Below, in pieces: positions 9,295-33,956 of a stretch of 64,000 nucleotides of DNA. Origin of the DNA: an uncultured Cohaesibacter sp. GTDB lineage: Bacteria > Pseudomonadota > Alphaproteobacteria > Rhizobiales > Cohaesibacteraceae. A program made the position numbers and the translations under genes. The stretch's first letter is position 1, and every line of letters starts with the position of its first letter. The notes beneath the pieces were generated by a model, which did no database searches, was not told where the DNA came from, and was given only the letters and a program-made list of their open reading frames with translations. The DNA is taken from the NCBI RefSeq assembly GCF_963676275.1, contig NZ_OY781091.1, positions 2,334,775 to 2,398,774 on the forward strand. The letters run 5' to 3'.

Positions 9295-9371
9295 CGGAGC
9301 GTAGCGCAGCCTGGTAGCGCACCTGATTTGGGATCAGGGGGTCGGAGGTTCGAATCCTCTCGCTCCGACCA
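9295..9371 (+). tRNA. tRNA-Pro(TGG)
   Basis: 77-base cloverleaf with acceptor CGGAGCG/CGCTCCG, anticodon stem CCTGA/TCAGG with loop TTTGGGA giving anticodon TGG, T-arm GGTTCGAATCC and an encoded CCA end. Confidence 0.95.
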
Positions 9372-9421
9372 TCTGAAATGGTCTAAAACCATTGGGCAGT
9401 CACTGCCTTAAAGAGAGCATC

Positions 9422-9733
9422 ATGAAAAAAGCGCGCATATTCAAACCTTCAAAGAATGCCATGCAGTCCGGACAAGCCAACAGCCAGTCTTGGGTGCTTT
9501 CCTTCGAGCCCGGATCCGCAAGCAAGCGCGATCCACTGACCGGGCATATCTCTTCCTCAGACACAAACCGACAGGTCAAGTTGACTTTTCCAACGCAGGA
9601 TGCCGCCATATCCTATGCCGAGCGCCAAGGTCTGGATTACCAGATTCTTGAGCCGAAAACACGCAAGCGGATCCTCAAGGCCTATTCGGACAATTTCGCA
9701 ACCGGTCGCATAGAGGGCAACTGGACGCATTAG
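9422..9733 (+). CDS. ETC complex I subunit, NDUFS4-like accessory subunit
   Basis: 103 residues. The pattern MKKARIFKPSKNAMQSG, SWVLSFEP, then FPTQDAAISYAERQGLDYQI and a C-terminal SDNFATGRIEGNWTH is the conserved region of the small NDUFS4/18-kDa type subunit, which alphaproteobacterial complex I shares with mitochondria. It should sit on the peripheral arm of NADH:ubiquinone oxidoreductase. It is encoded alone here, away from a nuo operon, 51 bases after tRNA-Pro, as is usual in this class. The start at 9422 was preferred over a GTG/ATG 30 bases upstream because AGAGAG precedes it. Confidence 0.85.
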   Translation: MKKARIFKPSKNAMQSGQANSQSWVLSFEPGSASKRDPLTGHISSSDTNRQVKLTFPTQDAAISYAERQGLDYQILEPKTRKRILKAYSDNFATGRIEGNWTH

Positions 9734-9847
9734 CGACAAGGCAGGAAACGCGCCCAAAGCCGGTCAATCCACCGCTTGATATCTCTAAATATGAGCCCGC
9801 TCGCAAGCGACGCATCCGCCTTGGCGTCTAGCCCGGTCACAATTTAA

Positions 9848-9875
9848 CCAGACTATTTCAATAGCAATAGTCTGG
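9848..9875. other. Perfect 10-bp stem-loop between the complex I subunit and the GH43 gene
   Basis: CCAGACTATT and AATAGTCTGG are exact inverted copies with an 8-base loop, 115 bases after one gene and 101 before the next. No T-run follows, so it may be a factor-assisted terminator or an operator for the glycosidase gene. Confidence 0.5.
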
Positions 9876-9976
9876 TGTGCATTTGCGTCGTTGCGCCGCT
9901 CAATCGTTCACCGGTAGATCATTTCCAAAGCGCGGCAGTCGGCCGCAATAGCGCAATCAGGAAAGAACTTCATCCT

Positions 9977-11680
9977 ATGCAAAAGCTCGTTCTTTCATTT
10001 CTGCTTTTCTGGCTTTGCGCATGGCCCAGCGCCTTTTCTCAAGAGTTGATTTCACAAGAATATTCCAGCCTGAAGCCGCAGGAAATCTCCCTGCACATGA
10101 CGCTGGATCCCACGCGCGACTCATCGCAATCCACGATTTCGATCGTTGATAGCAACAGGCAACAGATTATCGGGATCGGTATAAGAGCTATCGAGGGCAA
10201 AGCCCGATTGATCATGCGCCAGCACGGTTCGGACTGGATGCCGGTCGAGCTTGAAACAGACAAGCTTCAGCCGAGCAGAAATATCTGGCCCAATTCAGAC
10301 TTCAGCTCGCCGTTCGTCAAATTCTATGTTGCAAGAGGGCGGAAAATCCTCGTCTTCATCAACGGCATGCGGATCGCCAAAAGCGCCCGTCTTTTCACGG
10401 ATGAAAGATACTATCTTCTCAGTCAAAGCGCAGAGAGTGGCCACATATCAAGGGCTTCCCAAAAAACACTGCCTAAGGGCATTTTCTCGAAATTGGCAGG
10501 ATCCTTTGCCAAAAGTCAGGCCATTCCCGATTTGGCCGACCCAAACATTTCCTATTTTGACGATGTCTATTATCTGACTGGAACAACGGGCGGACGAAAA
10601 GACAATGCGCTTGCCTGTTTCATTTCAAGTGACTTGAAAAACTGGCAAGAAAATGATGCTTGCATCATCAACAATGACAATGAGCCATTTGCTGATTTCG
10701 CCAAATGGGCGCCGAGTCTGATTCAGCGGAAAGAGGGCATCTATGCCCTATATGCCCAAGTCTATCGCCAAGAGCCAAATATCTATAAAAAGAGAGATTT
10801 CGGACTAAGGGGTATCGGCTTCAAATTCATACCGCGAGACCGCTCTGGCAGCCTCCTGAAAGAGCAGAAAACAACACGGATGCTCGTCGGCAGCGACCAA
10901 AGCTACTATAAGCAAATACTGGATCCTTCACGGCGGGAAATTCAGATCATCGACCCCGAAATTTTCGAGCTGAATGACGATGGCCATGTCAGAAGCTTCC
11001 TTCTTTGGAAAGAGCGCCCTTTGACCGGGATAGATGAGACCGGTCGCGATGAGCCGTCCGTCTATCGATACACGACCATCGCAGTGCAGGAAATTGAAGT
11101 GAAGGCAGGTTCGATCTCCCTGATCGGCAACGGGCCACAAAAACTCATTCAATCCTATCTCGGCCAACCGCACACTGCATGGGCTCGAAATGACGAGCAG
11201 GGGACATGGCAAGGCCCGCTGATCGAAAATCCCAGCCTGCTCTTGCACGACAATATCTATTATCTGTTCTACTCTGCCCATCGATTTTATCAGGCCGATT
11301 ATAGCACCGGGCTCGCCATCGCCAGCGCACTGGATAAAAGGGGCCGAATTCTGCCGCCAACCGACCCCCGACTTCGCTTTATCCCTCTATTCAACAGCCC
11401 GCTTTTCGCCAGCACCATGTCAAACAATTTAGTCGGCGGAACAGCCAGCATATTGGGCGGCAACGGTTCGGCCAGATATGTTGGGGCAGGAGGTCTATCG
11501 GTATTTCCATTAGCAGACAGCAAGAGAACAAAAGCCGCTCCCGATTATGGCGTCGCCTTTCATGCCTACAAGATCGAGCCGGACACAAATATGAAAAAGC
11601 TAAACAAGAGTATCAAACGCAGCACATTGATTGGGCACCTGTATTTTGACGCCGCCCGTATTCCCAACATCATACCATAG
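9977..11680 (+). CDS. Exported GH43-type glycoside hydrolase
   Basis: 567 residues. Signal peptide MQKLVLSFLLFWLCAWPSAFS (about 1-22), then a beta-rich region (25-170), then a five-bladed-propeller pattern typical of GH43/GH32-like enzymes: ADPNISYFDDVYYLTGT (Asp188, candidate base), IDPEIFELNDDG (Asp326, candidate modulator) and IENPSLLLHDNIYYLFYSA (Glu417, candidate acid). These are the three acidic positions the family needs, in the right order. Members cut arabinan, xylan, galactan or related sugars. Substrate unknown; no sugar-uptake genes are adjacent. The start at 9977 begins the signal peptide. It is the last host gene before the phage site and only 110 bases from a phage relic, so it could be older cargo. 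Confidence 0.72.
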   Translation: MQKLVLSFLLFWLCAWPSAFSQELISQEYSSLKPQEISLHMTLDPTRDSSQSTISIVDSNRQQIIGIGIRAIEGKARLIMRQHGSDWMPVELETDKLQPSRNIWPNSDFSSPFVKFYVARGRKILVFINGMRIAKSARLFTDERYYLLSQSAESGHISRASQKTLPKGIFSKLAGSFAKSQAIPDLADPNISYFDDVYYLTGTTGGRKDNALACFISSDLKNWQENDACIINNDNEPFADFAKWAPSLIQRKEGIYALYAQVYRQEPNIYKKRDFGLRGIGFKFIPRDRSGSLLKEQKTTRMLVGSDQSYYKQILDPSRREIQIIDPEIFELNDDGHVRSFLLWKERPLTGIDETGRDEPSVYRYTTIAVQEIEVKAGSISLIGNGPQKLIQSYLGQPHTAWARNDEQGTWQGPLIENPSLLLHDNIYYLFYSAHRFYQADYSTGLAIASALDKRGRILPPTDPRLRFIPLFNSPLFASTMSNNLVGGTASILGGNGSARYVGAGGLSVFPLADSKRTKAAPDYGVAFHAYKIEPDTNMKKLNKSIKRSTLIGHLYFDAARIPNIIP

Positions 11681-14869: not shown

Positions 14870-15661
14870 TCATTGTCGTGTCGTGAGGTGTTTCCACTCT
14901 TTTTGAGCTTCGCAAATCCAAGGTTCTCTCTTGCAAATTGAATAGTTTTGAATTGCTTTATAAGGCTTTAGATACAATGAGTAAAAAGTGAAATCTCTAA
15001 CATATGAATTTGATAAACCATGGATAGAGTGACAGAGAGGATCAGGGCGATATATTATGGGAAGCTCATATCCGAACATAATTTTAATTTTTTCTGTTTT
15101 AGTGGTTTTATAGGCTTTGACGCCAACATCGAAATAATCGAAGAAGTTTGCTATATAAACATTCGATGTCATTCCCGTTAGAACACACAATCGACTAGCA
15201 TAAGTACGATGATTTTCATTAAAGTATACAATGTCATCAGTGTTTTTAAGAACATGTGGGGGTTTGAGGCCGAATGCACTTGTAAGCATGAAAGACCCAT
15301 AAAGAGAAAATGTCAGCGCAAAGAATGAAATTAAAGGAATTTTAGATGAAAATACTGATCCAAATCTAATTAGAAATTTATACGGGTAAAAAAGGCCGAT
15401 GCCAACAACAACGGATATAAGGCTTATTGATAAAAATAAAAAATCATAATCCTGCAATATGGCAATGCCAATAATTAATAGTGAAGATATTGATAAAATC
15501 GGAAAAATCATGAAGGTAGAAGACAGAATTCTTTCGGATGAGCTTTCACTTTTCCAATTGCCACACTTTCCATATGACCAAATTCTCCAAAAAGCTCCAC
15601 AAAAAAATAGGGTTACAATAAGGTCAATATTCTTGGTCGCAGAAAATACGAGAGAATTCAT
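14870..15661 (-). CDS. AT-rich membrane protein of unknown function (likely moron)
   Basis: 263 residues. Three to four hydrophobic helices in the N-terminal half (LIVTLFFCGAFWRIW; LSISSLLIIGIAI; FLFLSISLISVVVGIGLFY; LISFFALTFSLYGSFML) are followed by a roughly 140-residue hydrophilic region with several Cys residues (positions near 160, 210, 245 and 250), probably extracytoplasmic. Base composition is clearly more AT-rich than the flanking phage genes. It lies between the lysogeny operon and the repressor and overlaps the repressor stop by four bases, so it is probably expressed in the lysogen. No family recognised; superinfection exclusion would fit position and topology but is a guess. Confidence 0.6.
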   Translation of the reverse strand: MNSLVFSATKNIDLIVTLFFCGAFWRIWSYGKCGNWKSESSSERILSSTFMIFPILSISSLLIIGIAILQDYDFLFLSISLISVVVGIGLFYPYKFLIRFGSVFSSKIPLISFFALTFSLYGSFMLTSAFGLKPPHVLKNTDDIVYFNENHRTYASRLCVLTGMTSNVYIANFFDYFDVGVKAYKTTKTEKIKIMFGYELPIIYRPDPLCHSIHGLSNSYVRDFTFYSLYLKPYKAIQNYSICKREPWICEAQKEWKHLTTRQ

Positions 15662-15993
15662 TGTTGTTCATCTAATAGGCTGAGCATAGCGTAGGCGCGT
15701 TGCAAAAAGCTGGACGGTCTTCTTTCTAGTAAGACGACGATCTTTTCGAATTCACTATCTGAAATGGGAACATTCTTGAGTAGTTCCCAAGGCTCGCAAT
15801 CAAGAGCTTCCGCGCAGGCTTCTAAAAATGGTTGGTTATACGGTGTCTGGCCGCTTTCCATGCGGGAAACGGTCTGCTTCGTGCTATCAATTGCCTCTGC
15901 CAGCTGCTCCTGGGTCATGCCCCGATGTTTGCGCCATTCGCGCAAATACCATCGCTGAAGTTCTCCTGCCGACTTTCCGTATCTTTTGGTCAT
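15658..15993 (-). CDS. XRE-family phage repressor (CI-like)
   Basis: 111 residues from the ATG at 15993. The DNA-binding domain is textbook: WRKHRGMTQEQLAEAIDSTK then QTVSRMESGQTPYNQPFLEA. A short C-terminal segment (ISDSEFEKIVVLLERRPS) probably dimerises; no self-cleavage domain. It is divergent from the cro-like gene at 16090, with a perfect inverted repeat between them, the layout of a lambdoid-type genetic switch. A longer start at 16101 would run through the operator and is rejected. Confidence 0.82.
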   Translation of the reverse strand: MTKRYGKSAGELQRWYLREWRKHRGMTQEQLAEAIDSTKQTVSRMESGQTPYNQPFLEACAEALDCEPWELLKNVPISDSEFEKIVVLLERRPSSFLQRAYAMLSLLDEQQ

Positions 15994-16060
15994 GTCACCA
16001 ATTATGCAACTTTGCGCTCGCCTAGTCGTTGTGCGTATCTGTGACTTCACATCTTGACCA

Positions 16061-26727: not shown

Positions 26728-28267
26728 CGAAGCCAAAATCAAGAAGCTGAAACGCTTTTACAAGAAGGCTGACACTGAATTCCTCAAATTCAAACCGATG
26801 CTCGATGAGGCCTTTGACTATGCCATTCCCTATCGCAAGGGTATTTCGGAAACCGGCGCAGGCGAGAAACGGGTCAACAAGGCCTTCGACCAGACTGCAA
26901 TTGTAGGCGCGTTTCGCTTTGCCGGGCGGCTCTGGCAGGATTTCGTTTCGGAGGAAATGTTCCGGCTTGCACCCGGTGATATCCTCTCCGACAAGGTCAA
27001 GAATGATCTCCGACCTCAACTTGAAACCTACACTTCCGTTATCACCGGCATGGCATCAAACGGTGAATTCGATCTGGCTTTCCACGAAATGGGGCTGGAT
27101 CTTTCTGCAGGCACCGGTGCGATGTATATCCAGGAAGGCGAGGACACCGACACACCAGCCCGATTTGTGGCCGTACCAATCGATGAACTGCGTTTGCTGA
27201 AGGGTGGCCATGGCGACGTGCGCGGCATTTTCTGGGACCGTAAATGGGATGCCTGGGAAGTGCAGGATGAATTCTGGGACGAACGAGCAAGGTTCGGCCC
27301 GAACCTCAAAGACAAGCTGCAAAAGAATGAAAGCGATGACGTAACGCTACGTGTGGCAACACTCTATGATCGCAAAACCAAGAAATGGGTTACGACCACA
27401 TGGGTGGATTGCGACGAAGAAACGATCATTCGCGAAGAGAATAGCCTTACCAATCCTTGGCTGACACCGCGCTATTTCCGCGTTCCCGGTGAAACCATGG
27501 GGCGTGGCCCTGTCATGCTCGCCATGCCCTCCATCAAGACACTGAATACAGCGCAGAGCCTGACCTTGCAGGCTGCTGCAATTGCGCTCCTGGGCATCTG
27601 GACTGCCGTAGATGACGGTGTATTCAATCCGGATCAATCCGCAATCGAGCCAGGAGCGATTTGGACCGTGGCCCGCAATGGCGGTGTGCTTGGACCGACA
27701 GTACAACGCATGACCGACCCCAGGCTGGATACGAACAACATTATCCTCAATGACCTCCGGATGGCAGTACAAGCCACCATGATGGACCAGAGCTTGCCGC
27801 CAGACGGCGCTGCGGTGCGCAGCGCTACCGAGATCCTAGAAAGGGTCAAACGGCTCGCTACGGACCATATCGGGGCGTTTGGACGCCTTGTCTATGAGAT
27901 CATCGCGCCTCTTGCCCGCCGCTTGATAGAAATCGCTTACAAAAAGGGCCTGATCAAAGCACAGATCCCGATAGACCAGATCCTGATCCAGGTGAAAGTC
28001 TCTTCGCCTCTGGCAACGGCGCGGGCTGCTGAAAAGCTCGAAAAGATTACCCAATGGATCGATATGGTGCTGGCGATCTTGCAGACCGAGGCCAGACAGG
28101 TCGCCAAGCTGCAAGACGCCCTTGAATATATCGGGCATGAGCTGGGCGTTCCTTCCCGTTTCATTGTCACCAGTGATGAACGAGCCGCAATGCAAAAGCA
28201 GCAGCAGGACGAACAGGCCACCATGATGGCCGCCCAAATGGCCATGCAAGCCGGGGAGGGCGTCTAA
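26663..28267 (+). CDS. Head-to-tail connector (portal) protein
   Basis: 534 residues, the usual size for T7 gp8-type portals. Lys-rich N-terminus, then RFYKKADTEFLKFKPMLDEA, FAGRLWQDFVSEEMF, LSAGTGAMYIQEGE, RYFRVPGETMGRGPVMLAMP and RSATEILERVKRLATDHIGA, in the order seen in podovirus connectors. It forms the dodecameric ring that DNA passes through and that starts head assembly. The stop overlaps the next gene's start by one base. Confidence 0.88.
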   Translation: MAKRKSTAPKEPEGKGHSKGNDEAKIKKLKRFYKKADTEFLKFKPMLDEAFDYAIPYRKGISETGAGEKRVNKAFDQTAIVGAFRFAGRLWQDFVSEEMFRLAPGDILSDKVKNDLRPQLETYTSVITGMASNGEFDLAFHEMGLDLSAGTGAMYIQEGEDTDTPARFVAVPIDELRLLKGGHGDVRGIFWDRKWDAWEVQDEFWDERARFGPNLKDKLQKNESDDVTLRVATLYDRKTKKWVTTTWVDCDEETIIREENSLTNPWLTPRYFRVPGETMGRGPVMLAMPSIKTLNTAQSLTLQAAAIALLGIWTAVDDGVFNPDQSAIEPGAIWTVARNGGVLGPTVQRMTDPRLDTNNIILNDLRMAVQATMMDQSLPPDGAAVRSATEILERVKRLATDHIGAFGRLVYEIIAPLARRLIEIAYKKGLIKAQIPIDQILIQVKVSSPLATARAAEKLEKITQWIDMVLAILQTEARQVAKLQDALEYIGHELGVPSRFIVTSDERAAMQKQQQDEQATMMAAQMAMQAGEGV

Positions 28268-28869
28268 TGGGCCGCGCCGGATTTGACCTTCACGACATGA
28301 TTTCTCGCCTTGGCAGCGAGCACAGCTGGGAAACCCTCGAAAATCTGCAGAACATGTTTGCGCATCCGGAGAAACGAAAGCTGGCTGAAGAAGAAAAGGC
28401 CATGAAGGAAGCTGCGCAAATTCGCTTCCGGCAGAATCTTCTGGCGATCTTCTCGATGGAGCAGGGGCGCAATGTGCTTGAAGAATTGATCCGGGGAACC
28501 GTTGCGCGTCCTCCTGTTAATCTTGGCATATCCGGCCTTTCTTCCGATCAGGTGGGCGTGATGTCCGCCTATCGCGAAGGTCAGAACTCTATCATCCATT
28601 CCATACTTTCCGACCTTCAAAAGGCGGGTTTCACCCCGTCAGATAAATCCGCACAAGGAGACACAGCACCATGTTCATTCTCGGACACGACTGGCCAACC
28701 ATCACATTCGCAGTTGAAGACGGAACCGGATCCGACACAAACACCGGAAGCAACGAAGACGGCACTGCCGAAGAAAGTGCAAACGGTGCGGAAGCAACCC
28801 TCTATCGCTCGGACGGCCTCGAAGAGAGCTACTTCGGCGAAACGGATCAGGAAACCATCGACAAACTGA
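28267..28869 (+). CDS. Bbp19-like phage structural protein with out-of-frame tail
   Basis: 200 codons. The first 120 residues fit the Bbp19-like family of small podovirus proteins (IFSMEQGRNVLEELIRGTV, then SAYREGQNSIIHSILSDLQK). The rest, from about residue 135, overlaps the scaffold gene by about 200 bases in another frame and reads as Thr/Lys/Pro-rich low-quality sequence (ALPKKVQTVRKQPSIART), so the functional protein probably ended earlier. The ATG overlaps the portal stop by one base. Confidence 0.65.
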   Translation: MGRAGFDLHDMISRLGSEHSWETLENLQNMFAHPEKRKLAEEEKAMKEAAQIRFRQNLLAIFSMEQGRNVLEELIRGTVARPPVNLGISGLSSDQVGVMSAYREGQNSIIHSILSDLQKAGFTPSDKSAQGDTAPCSFSDTTGQPSHSQLKTEPDPTQTPEATKTALPKKVQTVRKQPSIARTASKRATSAKRIRKPSTN

Positions 28870-29474
28870 TGTCAGGCATCAAGGATGCGACACCGCAATT
28901 GCCCGAAGATGTCTCCGGCTATAATTTCACCCCTGCTGAAGGCCTGGAAGGCTATTTCGGTGAGAAAGACGACCCTTTGCTCAATTCGGCCAAGGCCGCA
29001 GCACTCAAAAACGGCATTGCACCCAATGTCTTGCAGAGCTTCATCAACGACACATTCGGGGATCCGGTGGCCAAGGGCGTGATCGCGCCACCATTCAACC
29101 CGAAAGCCGAAATTGATGGTCTTGCCAAGATGCTGGGTGGCGACACCAAGGTGGCTGAAAAGGCCATCAATGATGCAGATGCCATTGCTGGCAATCTGGC
29201 AAAAACCATGGGCCTCCCTGATGCTGCCACCGGCTTTTTTGAAGGCATGGCTGAAACGGCTTCCGGCGTAATGGTCATCCGCGCCATTCAGAAAATGGCA
29301 ACTGAAAAAGGTATTGCCCTTGGCGGACAGGACGCAGGCGCGACCACACATTTCTCAAGAGAAACCCTGAAGAACATGGGCGCAGACCCGCGCATTGATC
29401 CTCAGAGCACGAAATATGATCCGGACGTTAGGAAGAAATATGACGACAGCTATCGGGCGCTGTATGGGGGATGA
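28671..29474 (+). CDS. Scaffolding protein
   Basis: 267 residues with AAGGAG upstream of the start. Acidic, Asp/Glu/Gly-rich N-terminus (GTGSDTNTGSNEDGTAEES), a helical middle (NSAKAAALKNGIAPNVLQSF, KMLGGDTKVAEKAINDADAI) and a basic Tyr-rich end (KYDPDVRKKYDDSYRALYGG). This charge layout, the size and the position between portal and capsid are those of T7 gp9-type scaffold proteins, which shape the procapsid and then leave. The capsid gene, normally next, is displaced 3.6 kb by an AT-rich cassette. Confidence 0.75.
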   Translation: MFILGHDWPTITFAVEDGTGSDTNTGSNEDGTAEESANGAEATLYRSDGLEESYFGETDQETIDKLMSGIKDATPQLPEDVSGYNFTPAEGLEGYFGEKDDPLLNSAKAAALKNGIAPNVLQSFINDTFGDPVAKGVIAPPFNPKAEIDGLAKMLGGDTKVAEKAINDADAIAGNLAKTMGLPDAATGFFEGMAETASGVMVIRAIQKMATEKGIALGGQDAGATTHFSRETLKNMGADPRIDPQSTKYDPDVRKKYDDSYRALYGG

Positions 29475-29729
29475 CTTATTAAGAAAATTATAATTTCTTC
29501 AAATAAGCACTCAAAAGGCAACGATCAAAAAGTTCAAAAATTGATATCTCATCCGGCTTGTTTTTATCGGTTCATACCCATAAATTAAATTGTGATAAAC
29601 TCTTTATACCTAACGTTGTAGTAGACGGCAGCGTTATAATGTGAGCACCACAGCAAATCACAAGATTGGCTGTGCGTCGTATCATGGAATCAAATTACAC
29701 AAACCAAAACAACAGCTAGGTGAAATATA
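29475..29729. other. AT-rich upstream region of the cargo cassette
   Basis: 255 non-coding bases, much more AT-rich than the scaffold gene before it. A TATAAT at 29635-29640 is a possible -10 box; the -35 is weak. Probably the promoter region of the ParB-like/nuclease operon and the left edge of the inserted cassette. No repeats marking an insertion were found by eye. Confidence 0.5.
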
Positions 29730-30890
29730 ATGATCGACCTACCAACAAAAATGTTGGGCGGAACCTCTGATAGGAAAAACATTGCGGAACTTCTCCTAGA
29801 TACTTCCAACCCGCGTTTTGGTGAGCTTGAAAGAGGTTTCGAGCAGGCTCAGCTTGTTGATCTCATAATAGAAAAATTTGGAATCGATGATGTTGTAAGT
29901 TCTCTGGCAATGAACGGCTTTTTTGAGGCAGAGCCATTGGTTTGCGTTAAAAGAAGTGATGGGAAACTTGTTGTCAAAGAAGGAAACAGGCGCCTGTGTG
30001 CATGTATAGTCCTAACAGGCGACGAAAGAGCTGTTCGGCAGGGTAACCTCACCAACAAAATGCGAGGAATTTGGAAGGAAAACGGCACCCCCCCTATTGA
30101 GCCAATTCCTGTACTTATCTTTGATGAAAACGGCCCGGCGGCCGATACAATGTTATCTTATCTTGGCGTTCGCCATATTGCAGCAGCCCAGCCGTGGGAC
30201 TCATATGCAAAAGCCTCTTGGGTTGCCAAAATTACAGATGGCACAGGCATGCCTGTATCAAAGATTACTGATATGATTGGGGATCAACACAGTACAGTTA
30301 TTCGCCTTCTTGAAGGTTACCGTTTTATTAGACAGCTTATTGATACTGGGCAGTTTACGCCGGGAGATAGTCAAAGAAAAGGGCGCGGTAGCGTTACCGA
30401 GTACCCATTCTCTTGGGTTTATACAATCCTAGGATACAAGGCCGCTCGAGATTTTTGCGGACTTAGTGAAAAGGTCTCTGAGAAAGTAAACCCAATTCCA
30501 AGCAATAAGCTCGAAAACGCAGTTACTGTAGTTAGTTCAATGTTTGGTGATAGATCAATAGGAAGAAGTGCTGCAGTTTCAGATTCTCGCCAACTATCTG
30601 AATTAGCAAAAGCTTTTTCTGATCCAGAAAAGGTTGCGCTGCTAAACAGCGGAAGGGACCTAGATACGGTTTTGGATATTACTAAGCCTATCGAGACCAA
30701 GTTAGAAGAAAATCTCACTCACGTACGTGCCGTACTGTTCGACTTAGTTTCATCAGTTTCTGAGAATGAACCCTCAATTGAAGTTGCAAAGAAGCATCTA
30801 CCTACTTCCGTAAAAACTCGGGGCTTGTCAATCGATTTGGCAAAGCGTCTAAAAGAGATCGTTGACAAAGAATTCGAAAACTATGAATGA
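29730..30890 (+). CDS. ParB-like nuclease/DNA-binding domain protein of cargo cassette
   Basis: 386 residues. The N-terminal 130 residues have the ParB/Srx-type pattern: NIAELLLDTSNPRFGELERG at the start, FFEAEPLVCVKRSDGKLVVK, then EGNRRLCACIVL with the EGNRR box at 84-88. The centre contains a helix-turn-helix-like segment (VSKITDMIGDQHSTVIRLLE). The C-terminal 150 residues are helical and unrecognised. ParB-fold domains bind CTP in partition proteins but act as nucleases or sensors in many mobile-element proteins. It overlaps the next gene by eight bases, so the two are co-expressed. AT-rich relative to the phage. Confidence 0.75.
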   Translation: MIDLPTKMLGGTSDRKNIAELLLDTSNPRFGELERGFEQAQLVDLIIEKFGIDDVVSSLAMNGFFEAEPLVCVKRSDGKLVVKEGNRRLCACIVLTGDERAVRQGNLTNKMRGIWKENGTPPIEPIPVLIFDENGPAADTMLSYLGVRHIAAAQPWDSYAKASWVAKITDGTGMPVSKITDMIGDQHSTVIRLLEGYRFIRQLIDTGQFTPGDSQRKGRGSVTEYPFSWVYTILGYKAARDFCGLSEKVSEKVNPIPSNKLENAVTVVSSMFGDRSIGRSAAVSDSRQLSELAKAFSDPEKVALLNSGRDLDTVLDITKPIETKLEENLTHVRAVLFDLVSSVSENEPSIEVAKKHLPTSVKTRGLSIDLAKRLKEIVDKEFENYE

Positions 30891-31821
30891 TCAATCTTAT
30901 TTTTCGAGAGGACATCTCGTCAAGGTTTCTAGAGATGCTGATCAAGCTGAGCTAGTCGCTCTTAGGTTTGGACAATCAAGAGCGACATCTGGAGTAAGAG
31001 ATGATGCGATAGCGGATACACTTGAAGAAAACTACTCTGCCGGAAATGAATTTGAGGAAGAAGCTTGGCAATCACGAGAAACTTCTATGGATACAGCAGC
31101 TTCTCAAATTTTAGAGGAGCTGGAGAAAAGGTCTCTATCGCTCGGCGAACTGTACCCATTTCGAATTCAGGGAGATGTCCTATATTATGAACAATCACCA
31201 ACGCTTGTTTATGAATTTTTATTATGCACATCTCTTAGCCCAAGCTTGACAACCGGTAGATTCAAAGACTTTCCGCGTATCTTTGAGAGACTTGCGGCAG
31301 TTTTAACTGCAAACTTTTTGGGAGCTAATACACACTATTGTCATGTTGGATTTCCAAATGAGCACAGACGCTTTAAGAGCGCTGTCAGAGTTGTCATATC
31401 GGAAAGCCGTGAATTAAATTGGCAACCAGATGAAGGCTTACCTGACGAAGGGCCTCGTCAGGGAGATGAAGGCGTAGACTATATTCTCTGGAAAGACTTC
31501 GGTTGCGGTCGCCCTATTGGGCAACCCTTCTTTTTCGGACAATGCGCCTGCGGTAATGATTGGGACAATAAACTGAATGACGTATCCGAAAGATTTTTCA
31601 AATGGTTCTCGAGACTAAAGGTCGATAGAACAAAAGTTTTTGCCGTACCTTTTGTTATCCCTGATATTAAGCTTAGAGAAGTCACTCGAGACGCGGGTAT
31701 TGTTATGGATCGCTTACGGCTTGTTAAAGCAATTTCGACTGGGGAACATTTTGTAAAAGACGAATGGATAGATAGCCTTTTCAATACCATGTGTTTGGTT
31801 GCGACGGTTGATGAAATCTAA
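30883..31821 (+). CDS. Putative PD-(D/E)XK-type nuclease of cargo cassette
   Basis: 312 residues from the ATG at 30883. I do not recognise a named family. The central block GDEGVDYILWKDFG, then IGQPFFFGQCACGNDWDNKL has the look of a restriction-type PD-(D/E)XK core: Asp199, then Lys204 five residues on, then Gln220 in a strand, with Glu111 in an upstream helix as a possible fourth residue. The first 90 residues are charged and probably helical. It is translationally coupled to the ParB-like gene and convergent (nine bases) with a cytosine methyltransferase, the classic neighbourhood of a restriction enzyme. The nuclease call is an inference from motif spacing and context. Confidence 0.55.
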   Translation: MNDQSYFSRGHLVKVSRDADQAELVALRFGQSRATSGVRDDAIADTLEENYSAGNEFEEEAWQSRETSMDTAASQILEELEKRSLSLGELYPFRIQGDVLYYEQSPTLVYEFLLCTSLSPSLTTGRFKDFPRIFERLAAVLTANFLGANTHYCHVGFPNEHRRFKSAVRVVISESRELNWQPDEGLPDEGPRQGDEGVDYILWKDFGCGRPIGQPFFFGQCACGNDWDNKLNDVSERFFKWFSRLKVDRTKVFAVPFVIPDIKLREVTRDAGIVMDRLRLVKAISTGEHFVKDEWIDSLFNTMCLVATVDEI

Positions 31822-31829
31822 GCCGTCAC

Positions 31830-32765
31830 CTACCAAATATCGGGCAAGGCATCTGCAACAGCCTTAAAAAGAGGCGGAGGCACAGCATTGCCTACAACTT
31901 TATACTTTTCATTCATGGAAGACTTTTCTGGAAATTCTATCATCTTATCAAAACCTTGCAAAAGCGCGCATTCTTTATAAGAGAAGCGTCTTGCAGGTTT
32001 TTGAGATTCAAATACCCACTCATCTGTATTAACGCGAATCAGTCGCGGACTAACGGGATGTAGATTAACGTGCCTACTACGAGCAACAACAGTCTTGCTT
32101 AAGTCTTCCCAAGAACGATACCGATTTCTTGACAAATAGTACCAGTGGAATTTTTCCTTATTGTACTCGCCCTCCGGCCACAGTGGCAAATGACCAATTG
32201 CATCTCTTATTGTCTTAAACGGCTTAGATTGCCCTGGGCCATGAGTTGGCTCAGGAAAAGTATAACTGATTCCAAAATCTGAGCGAATTCCAACCAAGAA
32301 TAAGCGGCGTCTCTGTTGGGGAACTCCAAAGTCCTCTGCGTTTAAGACTTTCCACGACACCCGATAACCAGCCAACCGGAATCTAGTGAGTTGATTATTT
32401 AGTAAATGAGACAAGTCCGAGCGTTGCATACCAGAAACATTCTCAACAATAAACGCTTTTGGTTTTATGCATCGCAGCACTCGATCAAATTCTTGATACA
32501 AATAATTTATACTTCGATCAGCTTTGCGCACTCCCCCTTGGCTAAAACCTTGGCAGGGATAACATCCCACCAAAATATCCGCCGCTGGAAAGCTGTTTAA
32601 ATTTCGGATATCACCAAGTTGATAATCTGTTTCTGGAAAATTGTGAATATAGAATTCTCGAGCATATGGCAAAATATCATTCGCCATGACTACTTCGTGC
32701 CCAGCCGCATGTAGTCCGGCATCAGACCCACCACAGCCAGTAAAAAGAGAAACTGCCCTGGCCAT
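31830..32765 (-). CDS. DNA (cytosine-5-)-methyltransferase
   Basis: 311 residues, complete C5-MTase. Motif I SLFTGCGGSDAG (6-17), motif IV GCYPCQGFS with catalytic Cys71, motif VI ENV (108-110), motif VIII QRRRL (151-155) and motif X GNAVPPPL (292-299) are all intact. The target-recognition region (about 190-265, with NKEKFHWYYLSRNRYRSWED) is short, so the recognition site is probably 4-6 bases. Convergent with the ParB-like/nuclease operon and AT-rich like it, so likely part of the same cassette. It could protect host and prophage DNA from the partner nuclease, or be a free-standing phage methylase against host restriction. Confidence 0.9.
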   Translation of the reverse strand: MARAVSLFTGCGGSDAGLHAAGHEVVMANDILPYAREFYIHNFPETDYQLGDIRNLNSFPAADILVGCYPCQGFSQGGVRKADRSINYLYQEFDRVLRCIKPKAFIVENVSGMQRSDLSHLLNNQLTRFRLAGYRVSWKVLNAEDFGVPQQRRRLFLVGIRSDFGISYTFPEPTHGPGQSKPFKTIRDAIGHLPLWPEGEYNKEKFHWYYLSRNRYRSWEDLSKTVVARSRHVNLHPVSPRLIRVNTDEWVFESQKPARRFSYKECALLQGFDKMIEFPEKSSMNEKYKVVGNAVPPPLFKAVADALPDIW

Positions 32766-33050
32766 TCACAACTCCTTCTGTCAATTTAACAATGCAATAT
32801 CAGGTGACACGACAATCATCAATGATCATCATACTTAATAGACTGAATTTCACAGAGCTCATTAAACCGCAAGCACTTCCCCTTACCTCCATACCATCTT
32901 ATTCAAAAGCCATCAAAAGTTGTTCGGTTGACCATCCATTCAGGCGGTTAGCGTTGTAGCCAAGCCAGGGCTCAATGCACCGCCTTTTCATTGCCCGCAG
33001 CCGGTAGGGCCTCTGGCGAGACGAAAACTCGCTATGGAAGGCTACAAGAC
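32766..33050. other. Right edge of the cargo cassette and capsid leader
   Basis: 285 non-coding bases. The left part is AT-rich and should hold the methyltransferase promoter on the minus strand. The right part (from about 32930) returns to phage base composition and leads into the capsid gene. No clear promoter or terminator seen. Confidence 0.45.
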
Positions 33051-33956
33051 ATGAGCACTGATGCACCAACCTGGTTTGTGGAGCAGTATAAAGACGGCGT
33101 CATCCAGAAATACCAGGCCAAGGGCTTTCTGCTGAAATCCTCCGTTACACCGGCAGGCAGCATTGAAGGCAGCAAGGCCTATTTCAACCTGATGGGCAAA
33201 GGCAAGGCCAACAAGAAAAAGCGCGGGCAGGCTGCTGTTCCGATGAATGCCCAGAAGGGCCGCGTCGAAGCGATCCTTGAAACCTGGGAAGCCTTCGATG
33301 AGGTCTATAAATTCGACCTTGCCCGCATGACCGCTAACGAGAAGGAAGCAATCCAGACAGCTGGCGCCATGGCGCTCGGACGCGCGACCGATGACGAGAT
33401 CATGGTCAAACTGGACGGCTCTTCGAGCAAGTCAGCAGGCACAGGCAAGGGCATGAAGCCGTTGCTGGACGCCAACGGTCAACCGGGCATGATCGGCGGG
33501 GCTGCAACGCCCTTTGAACTCAAACATCTTCTGCTAATGGCCAGCGCCTTGAAGCAGGCAGACGTGCCATGGGATGGCAATGTCTTCTGTCCGTTGCCTT
33601 CATTGCTGTTTGATCAGGCTTGCGCCTACAAGCAATTCAACAATGCGGATTGGACTGGTGACGATCTCAGCTTCACCAAAGTGACCACCTCCAAATTCTG
33701 GGCTGGGGTGCATTGGTTCCAGGCTCCGGATGATCTCTTCCTCGAGAATGAAGAGGGGCATTACGATATCGAGATGTACCATCGTTCTTCCTCCGGCTGG
33801 GCCAACAATTCCGAACTTTCCAGCATCTGGGATTGGGATAACCGCCTTGGCTGCTGGACGGTGCGTATGGAAACCGAAGGCGCGGCCGCTTGCTTCCAGC
33901 CAACCGGCACAGTGCGAGGTCGGTTCAAGGTTCCAACCGATATCGCGCTGAATTGA
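33051..33956 (+). CDS. Major capsid protein
   Basis: 301 residues from the ATG at 33051 (an in-frame ATG at 32991 is less likely; GGAAGG precedes 33051). It begins TDAPTWFVEQYKDGVIQKYQ, followed by LKSSVTPAGSIEGSKAYFNL and ends FQPTGTVRGRFKVPTDIAL. The size, the start and the position before a small decoration-type gene and tail tube genes are those of the capsid proteins of temperate podoviruses in Rhizobiales; HK97-type fold is presumed. Separated from its scaffold by the cargo cassette. Confidence 0.78.
   Translation: MSTDAPTWFVEQYKDGVIQKYQAKGFLLKSSVTPAGSIEGSKAYFNLMGKGKANKKKRGQAAVPMNAQKGRVEAILETWEAFDEVYKFDLARMTANEKEAIQTAGAMALGRATDDEIMVKLDGSSSKSAGTGKGMKPLLDANGQPGMIGGAATPFELKHLLLMASALKQADVPWDGNVFCPLPSLLFDQACAYKQFNNADWTGDDLSFTKVTTSKFWAGVHWFQAPDDLFLENEEGHYDIEMYHRSSSGWANNSELSSIWDWDNRLGCWTVRMETEGAAACFQPTGTVRGRFKVPTDIALN

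Follow-up and report, generated by a model that had tools for sequence, protein, structure and literature searches.

What might three AT-rich genes be doing among the head genes of a prophage? The question is raised by a stretch of 64,000 nucleotides from an uncultured Cohaesibacter sp. (assembly GCF_963676275.1, contig NZ_OY781091.1, positions 2,334,775 to 2,398,774; hereafter the window), in which a gene for a ParB-like protein (P1), a gene for a probable nuclease (P2) and a gene for a C5-cytosine DNA methyltransferase are set between the major capsid gene and one that may encode the scaffold. A first-pass annotation had suggested an unnamed trio of restriction-modification (RM) type. Its recurrence as a unit is upheld here and no name for it came up in the literature passages searched; for P2 a nuclease fold is probable but short of proof. 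We think it likely that the three genes form one mobile RM-type immunity cassette. The best reading of the sequences is that this is an undescribed cassette, sister to the PD-lambda-5 system and carried in a prophage cargo hotspot.

The three proteins of the cassette

P1 (29730..30890, plus strand; 386 residues) consists of a ParB N-terminal domain, a helix-turn-helix (HTH) part and a helical C-terminal part. Its structural model has a mean predicted local distance difference test score (pLDDT) of 75 and finds as its best Foldseek match the ParB-CDP structure 7bnk (E = 6.3e-05, prob 1.00). All 20 Foldseek matches at E <= 0.001 are titled ParB, KorB or Noc, the agreement lying in the N-terminal and HTH parts of P1, and a profile search leads to ParB (4umk; E = 4.7e-4). 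Whole-chain template modelling (TM) scores are low (query-normalised 0.15-0.30) and root-mean-square deviations high, so the kind of fold is better supported than its exact geometry. On these matches, P1 has the ParB/Noc/KorB fold. An EGNRR motif (E84 G85 N86 R87 R88) is invariant in 21 of 21 P1 relatives; we take it to be the counterpart of the arginine-rich, GERR-type nucleotide-binding motif of ParB proteins, and from this motif one might guess that P1 uses CTP. P1 belongs to phrog_3694 (1.5e-75), a PHROG without a function label, and residues 17-170 match positions 10-163 of the 493 in the PADLOC model PD-Lambda-5_A (3.9e-12).

P2 (30883..31821, plus strand, starting with the ATG at 30883; 312 residues) overlaps P1 by 8 bp and falls in phrog_14650 (8.2e-52) and phrog_3984, for which PHROG gives the function label "unknown". 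Its core reads G-D-x-G-x-D199 ... Q220-C ... W227-x2-K230. Across 21 aligned P2 relatives no change is seen at D20, E23, R83, Y91, P92, L114, D199, Q220, R277 or R279, and 20 of them have K230; the exception, locus L017, reads Q-C-K and so carries its lysine at Q+2, a shift that would fit a catalytic role for this residue. The core thereby holds the conserved acidic residue, the D/E/Q position and the lysine of PD-(D/E)XK enzymes. The first-pass annotation had placed the core at Asp199, Lys204 and Gln220; its first and third residues were borne out, and Lys204 was rejected as the catalytic residue, a lysine standing there in just 3 of the 21 relatives. K230 (or the residue at Q+2) is the likeliest catalytic lysine.

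A profile built from the 21 P2 rows aligns to MspJI (PDB 4f0p) with E = 0.12 over 47 positions, with G-D-G-G-x-D and D-x20-Q in common, over a stretch that we take to be the catalytic core of MspJI. Unlike in MspJI, the lysine of P2 has moved and a methyltransferase is encoded alongside. From this pattern of conservation we regard P2 as a probable PD-(D/E)XK nuclease of the Q type, its core (D199, Q220, K230) resembling that of MspJI. A restriction fold had been proposed for the 312-residue protein; on profile search and structure prediction the core motif stands, and the fold is not confidently modelled (pLDDT 50). No Pfam, NCBIfam or PADLOC model matched P2 above its cut-off. A Pfam GMT-wHTH match (E = 0.077, below its cut-off) and matches to PDB sequences by P2 alone or by a first P2 profile (E = 0.27 to 1.4) were judged to be chance. 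Bacillus subtilis sequences match phrog_14650 weakly, at E <= 0.001 with none at 1e-8; a link to BsuMI is a bare conjecture, to which a literature search added nothing.

The methyltransferase (31830..32765, minus strand; 311 residues) is complete, as had been claimed: it matches Pfam PF00145 (DNA_methylase) with E = 6.3e-66 over profile positions 2-322 of 324, a match that gives the C5 family only. It is the sole PF00145 match in the 5.03-Mb host genome, in which methyltransferases of this class alone were sought. Its best PADLOC match is DruM2 of Druantia type II (1.5e-115), and neither P1 nor P2 matched DruE/DruF/DruG-type Druantia partners in PADLOC, a scan that did not extend to the phage genes around the trio.

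Recurrence of the trio and exchange of methyltransferases

Searches with P1 or P2 as bait, and none with the methyltransferase, retrieved 18 distinct P1-P2 pairs in 17 loci. Each full-length P2 examined adjoins a P1, overlapping it or nearly so. The methyltransferase is the next gene in 13 of the 18 pairs and lies upstream in the same cluster in two more (15 of 18 in total), which agrees with the expectation that homologues of the ParB-like and middle genes would be found near methyltransferases, and gives the linkage of methyltransferase and nuclease genes that is typical of Type II systems. A motif scan for methyltransferases failed to pick up the C5 genes that L003 and L006 are known to have, and its negatives were therefore not counted.

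Left out before counting were the P2 matches that lack a P1, namely a P2 remnant in L005 and a weak match of 71 residues (L022/L016), and the near-copies L038, L052 and L025. L002, L007, L011, L026, L056 and L058 correspond to the place in the window itself, and L008-L010, L012-L015, L055 and L071 repeat places already counted. The set of 21 aligned rows holds only L038, L052 and L054 of the loci from IMG/VR, the other IMG/VR loci being counted apart. A P1-like protein of Rhizobium leguminosarum (H25), loci L027 and L028, and phages 12474II, IV and V enter here by their search matches only. Viral contigs searched with the P2 proteins of the window, L023, L024, L004 and L020 yielded no relative, and in the classes of genomes G510 (48 genomes; phrog_14650) and G556 (78 genomes; A7) the only matches were G510 and G556 themselves.

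The partner methyltransferases are of C5, D12 (N6A) or N4/N6 type, which implies that the methyltransferase has been exchanged; among the rows with a partner, at least three changes of partner class fall on the P1+P2 tree. P1 and P2 stay paired through these exchanges. Plasmids and chromosomes carry the pair as well, once next to other genes of RM type.

The same trio occurs in WPhi, Peduovirus 12474III, an isolate of phage P2 and Pseudomonas D14A, the records of all four having been opened. In WPhi (gp98-gp96-mth) and 12474III (gp04-gp05-gp06) the order is likewise tail to tail and the methyltransferase is 64-65% identical to that of the window, whereas P1 is 23-24% and P2 18% identical, and the 12474III slot adjoins the portal gene instead of separating scaffold from capsid. 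Public annotation of the P2 genes of both phages carries no function. Phages 12474II, IV and V have suitably spaced matches to P1 and the methyltransferase. Similarity to P2 led to 18 IMG/VR loci, many of them near-copies; P1 is present in all 18, and P1, P2 and a C5 gene together in 17. The remaining contig (L042) ends within P2, and in one of the 17 (L044) P2 is interrupted by a transposase-like frame.

The methyltransferase of this clade was not found mostly alone at phage loci, an outcome that would have spoken against a trio. The best 10 phage records by methyltransferase similarity (57-64% identical; 7 distinct phages) all bear P1, and the next record is at 36%. In Escherichia coli the methyltransferase is present at near identity in 139 of 5426 genomes. 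At a coverage of at least 80%, the trio is of the WPhi type in 103 genomes and of the 12474 type in 36, in complementary identity bands; there seems to be no lone copy of the methyltransferase among the E. coli matches, the sets having been compared by totals rather than genome by genome. Between the WPhi type (L032) and the 12474 type (L030) the methyltransferase proteins are 98% identical, as against 33% for P1 and 23% for P2. These values imply that restriction arm and methyltransferase can be exchanged against each other. IS5- or IS1-like elements lie inside the trio in E. coli NZ_CP193883 and NZ_CP172159; these and L044 are perhaps silenced copies.

The slot between the scaffold and capsid genes

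The three open reading frames lie where the first-pass annotation had put them, and the 8-bp overlap of P1 and P2 was measured again; the tail-to-tail gap from the P2 stop to the methyltransferase stop, given there as 9 bp, is 8 bp (31822-31829). The greater AT content claimed for the cassette was also found. GC is 0.438 for P1, 0.425 for P2 and 0.433 for the methyltransferase, against 0.547 for the portal gene, 0.540 for the putative scaffold gene and 0.556 for the capsid gene, and GC at third codon positions is 0.34-0.37 in the cassette against 0.59-0.67 in the same three head genes. The kilobase of lowest GC in the window lies elsewhere, at 15001-16000 (0.39).

Alignment by blastn to the related prophage L066 gives blocks that end at 29467 and resume at 32924. 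The cargo insert (29468..32923) thus measures 3456 bp, against 18 bp in L066, and the cassette splits genes that adjoin elsewhere, as had been proposed. The right border is the major capsid gene (33051..33956, plus strand), which matches phrog_3437, "major head protein", with E = 1.2e-36. The left border (28671..29474, plus strand) is called scaffold by position, its product having no PHROG match at E 0.01; a homologue lies left of the gap in all six related loci (L065-L070). It overlaps another head-region frame (28267-28869) by 199 bp, and the homologues overlap too in several related prophages.

The slot that is empty in L066 holds a DUF4747 gene and small partners in L065. In L067 it holds two genes that match PDC-M55A and PDC-M55B, the former AriA as well, and in L068 IetA with a cut-short IetS and repeated transposase-like frames. 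L069 has there a protein of 783 residues with a weak AAA match, and L070 other genes. These contents give the slot the look of a defence hotspot in related prophages of the genus, and we counted the IetAS-like and AriA-like genes in the same slot in favour of an immune function.

In all seven prophages the capsid gene follows a conserved leader some 130 bases long (window 32924-33050). At two base pairs of its consensus fold both partners have changed (C-G to U-A in three of seven, A-U to U-A in two of seven), with a covariation term of +0.27, slightly unfavourable; the leader is possibly an RNA element.

Known systems, mechanism and rival explanations

The nearest tested system that we found is PD-lambda-5, an anti-phage system described as "RM+Abi" (Vassallo et al. 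2022, PMC9519451). Both begin with a ParB-like domain, the P1 proteins of the window and the WPhi type each matching PD-Lambda-5_A over roughly their first 150 residues, and both have a methyltransferase partner, with D12 partners in either group. The PD-Lambda-5_A models (mostly 428-613 positions), however, fuse the ParB-like domain to another C-terminal part, of which P1 has no counterpart within its match, and P2 is a separate gene; P2 and six aligned relatives match no PADLOC family. PD-Lambda-5_B matches D12-type enzymes, whereas the window partner is a C5 enzyme that matches PF00145 only in Pfam and does not have PD-Lambda-5_B among the best 25 of its 63 PADLOC families. We rejected PD-lambda-5 as a name for the trio, since effector and partner differ. 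A literature search, which did not reach supplementary tables, found no name for the trio, and it may be named there.

PD-Lambda-5_B matches were seen for partners on a Kosakonia plasmid (5.3e-123) and in phage AS1 (4.1e-103), both with a fused PD-Lambda-5_A. In ValB1MD-2, PD-Lambda-5_A is split into two genes beside a D12 methyltransferase, a layout between those of PD-lambda-5 and the cassette. L027 and L028 carry frames of 732-735 residues with a PD-Lambda-5_A-like first domain (1.6e-7 and 2.5e-5), perhaps a third layout. The cassette also resembles Type II RM systems in setting a C5 methyltransferase beside a probable PD-(D/E)XK nuclease gene, but differs from them in that each pair brings in a ParB/Noc/KorB-type gene as the third member and that one restriction-pair family is served by C5, D12 and N4/N6 partners.

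For the favoured immunity cassette, we infer nuclease activity of P2, triggering by unmethylated DNA and a role for P1 in linking recognition with cleavage. The C5 methyltransferase would mark the lysogen's own DNA. P1, of the DNA-binding ParB/Noc/KorB type and with its nucleotide-binding motif kept, would recognise the target and load or switch on P2, which would cut DNA without the mark. A more specific and rather doubtful version is that a ParB-type CTP clamp gates restriction: P1 would load at an unmethylated target and slide as a ring, carrying or activating P2. Recognition would then be uncoupled from cutting, and the methyltransferase could be exchanged for one of another chemistry.

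Several observations weigh against an RM-type cassette of this kind. The P2 model made with AlphaFold is weak (pLDDT 50.4, predicted TM score 0.54), although its order of helices and strands would fit a PD-(D/E)XK fold; Foldseek with this low-confidence model gave no match under E 1, MspJI ranking 2-3 (E 1.2-1.3, prob 0.10-0.12), and the profile alignment to MspJI reaches only the short, marginal match given above. The pair is rare: among 385 genomes of the class it is seen in 4, and among 398 of the phylum in 6, with the host genome counted and the 71-residue match among the six. Three pairs have no adjacent methyltransferase (L001, L006b and L035, the last by annotation within 4 kb only). 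One of them, L001 of Palleronia, holds the nearest relatives of the window pair (P1 71%, P2 64% identical), and the nearest C5 gene seen there is 2.8 kb away and 32% identical to that of the window. In L023 the methyltransferase (9324-9995) is without its N-terminal part, the Pfam match starting at profile position 94, beside seemingly intact P1 and P2 genes; with the genome 78% complete, the fragment may reflect an assembly fault. A P1-P2 pair that simply cut unmarked DNA would be expected to kill a host without the methyltransferase. Such cases, L001 and L023 foremost, speak against P2 being a plain nuclease that is always on, and make conceivable a form that is inducible or abortive, as has been suggested for PD-lambda-5 (PMC9519451).

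Abortive infection is the alternative that survives best, and we regard it as a serious contender, if not a probable one. P1-P2 would be a guarded toxin, turned on the DNA of its own cell by loss of the methyl mark or by a phage that puts the methyltransferase out of action. It accords with the pairs that have no intact adjacent methyltransferase (L001, L023) and with the first domain that P1 has in common with PD-Lambda-5_A, whose system carries the "RM+Abi" description (PMC9519451). P2, however, has no PADLOC match, so it is not the C-terminal part of PD-lambda-5, and its core is of restriction type.

MspJI cuts next to 5-methylcytosine, and among solved chains the P2 core is nearest to MspJI. 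P1-P2 could in that case act like a Type IV system on phage DNA with foreign base modifications, the methyltransferase being separate or a protective add-on. The 3 of 18 pairs without a methyltransferase in the cluster would suit this explanation; we nevertheless consider it improbable, because most pairs (13 of 18) adjoin a methyltransferase, three classes being represented, and a 5-methylcytosine-dependent nuclease beside its own 5-methylcytosine methyltransferase would be expected to cut the host.

We give as little credence to P1 being only a regulator of transcription or timing, with P2 alone an ordinary Type II enzyme matching the methyltransferase. Some RM systems carry controller genes, and ParB-family members also include regulators such as KorB, a Foldseek match titled transcriptional repressor; P1 and P2, however, stay together through methyltransferase exchanges, and PD-Lambda-5_A fuses a P1-like domain to the rest of the protein. 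A role outside immunity, with the methyltransferase shielding the phage and P1-P2 working in its replication or partition, is very improbable, since, common as C5 methyltransferases are in phages (155 records at E 1e-20 in a search with that of the window), the pair also occurs on plasmids and chromosomes, once beside RM-type genes, and the slot holds other defence genes in related prophages.

The RM-type immunity cassette could be put to the test at once, since P2-like coliphages carry the trio and so do 139 of 5426 E. coli genomes. Its two natural E. coli types, with nearly the same methyltransferase and very different restriction arms, offer a ready-made swap experiment on how the site is read. 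If the reading is true, it would add a ParB-family subunit to the parts of restriction systems, and PD-lambda-5, WPhi gp98-gp96-mth and the cassette would make up one superfamily with a ParB-like sensor, an exchangeable effector and an exchangeable methyltransferase.

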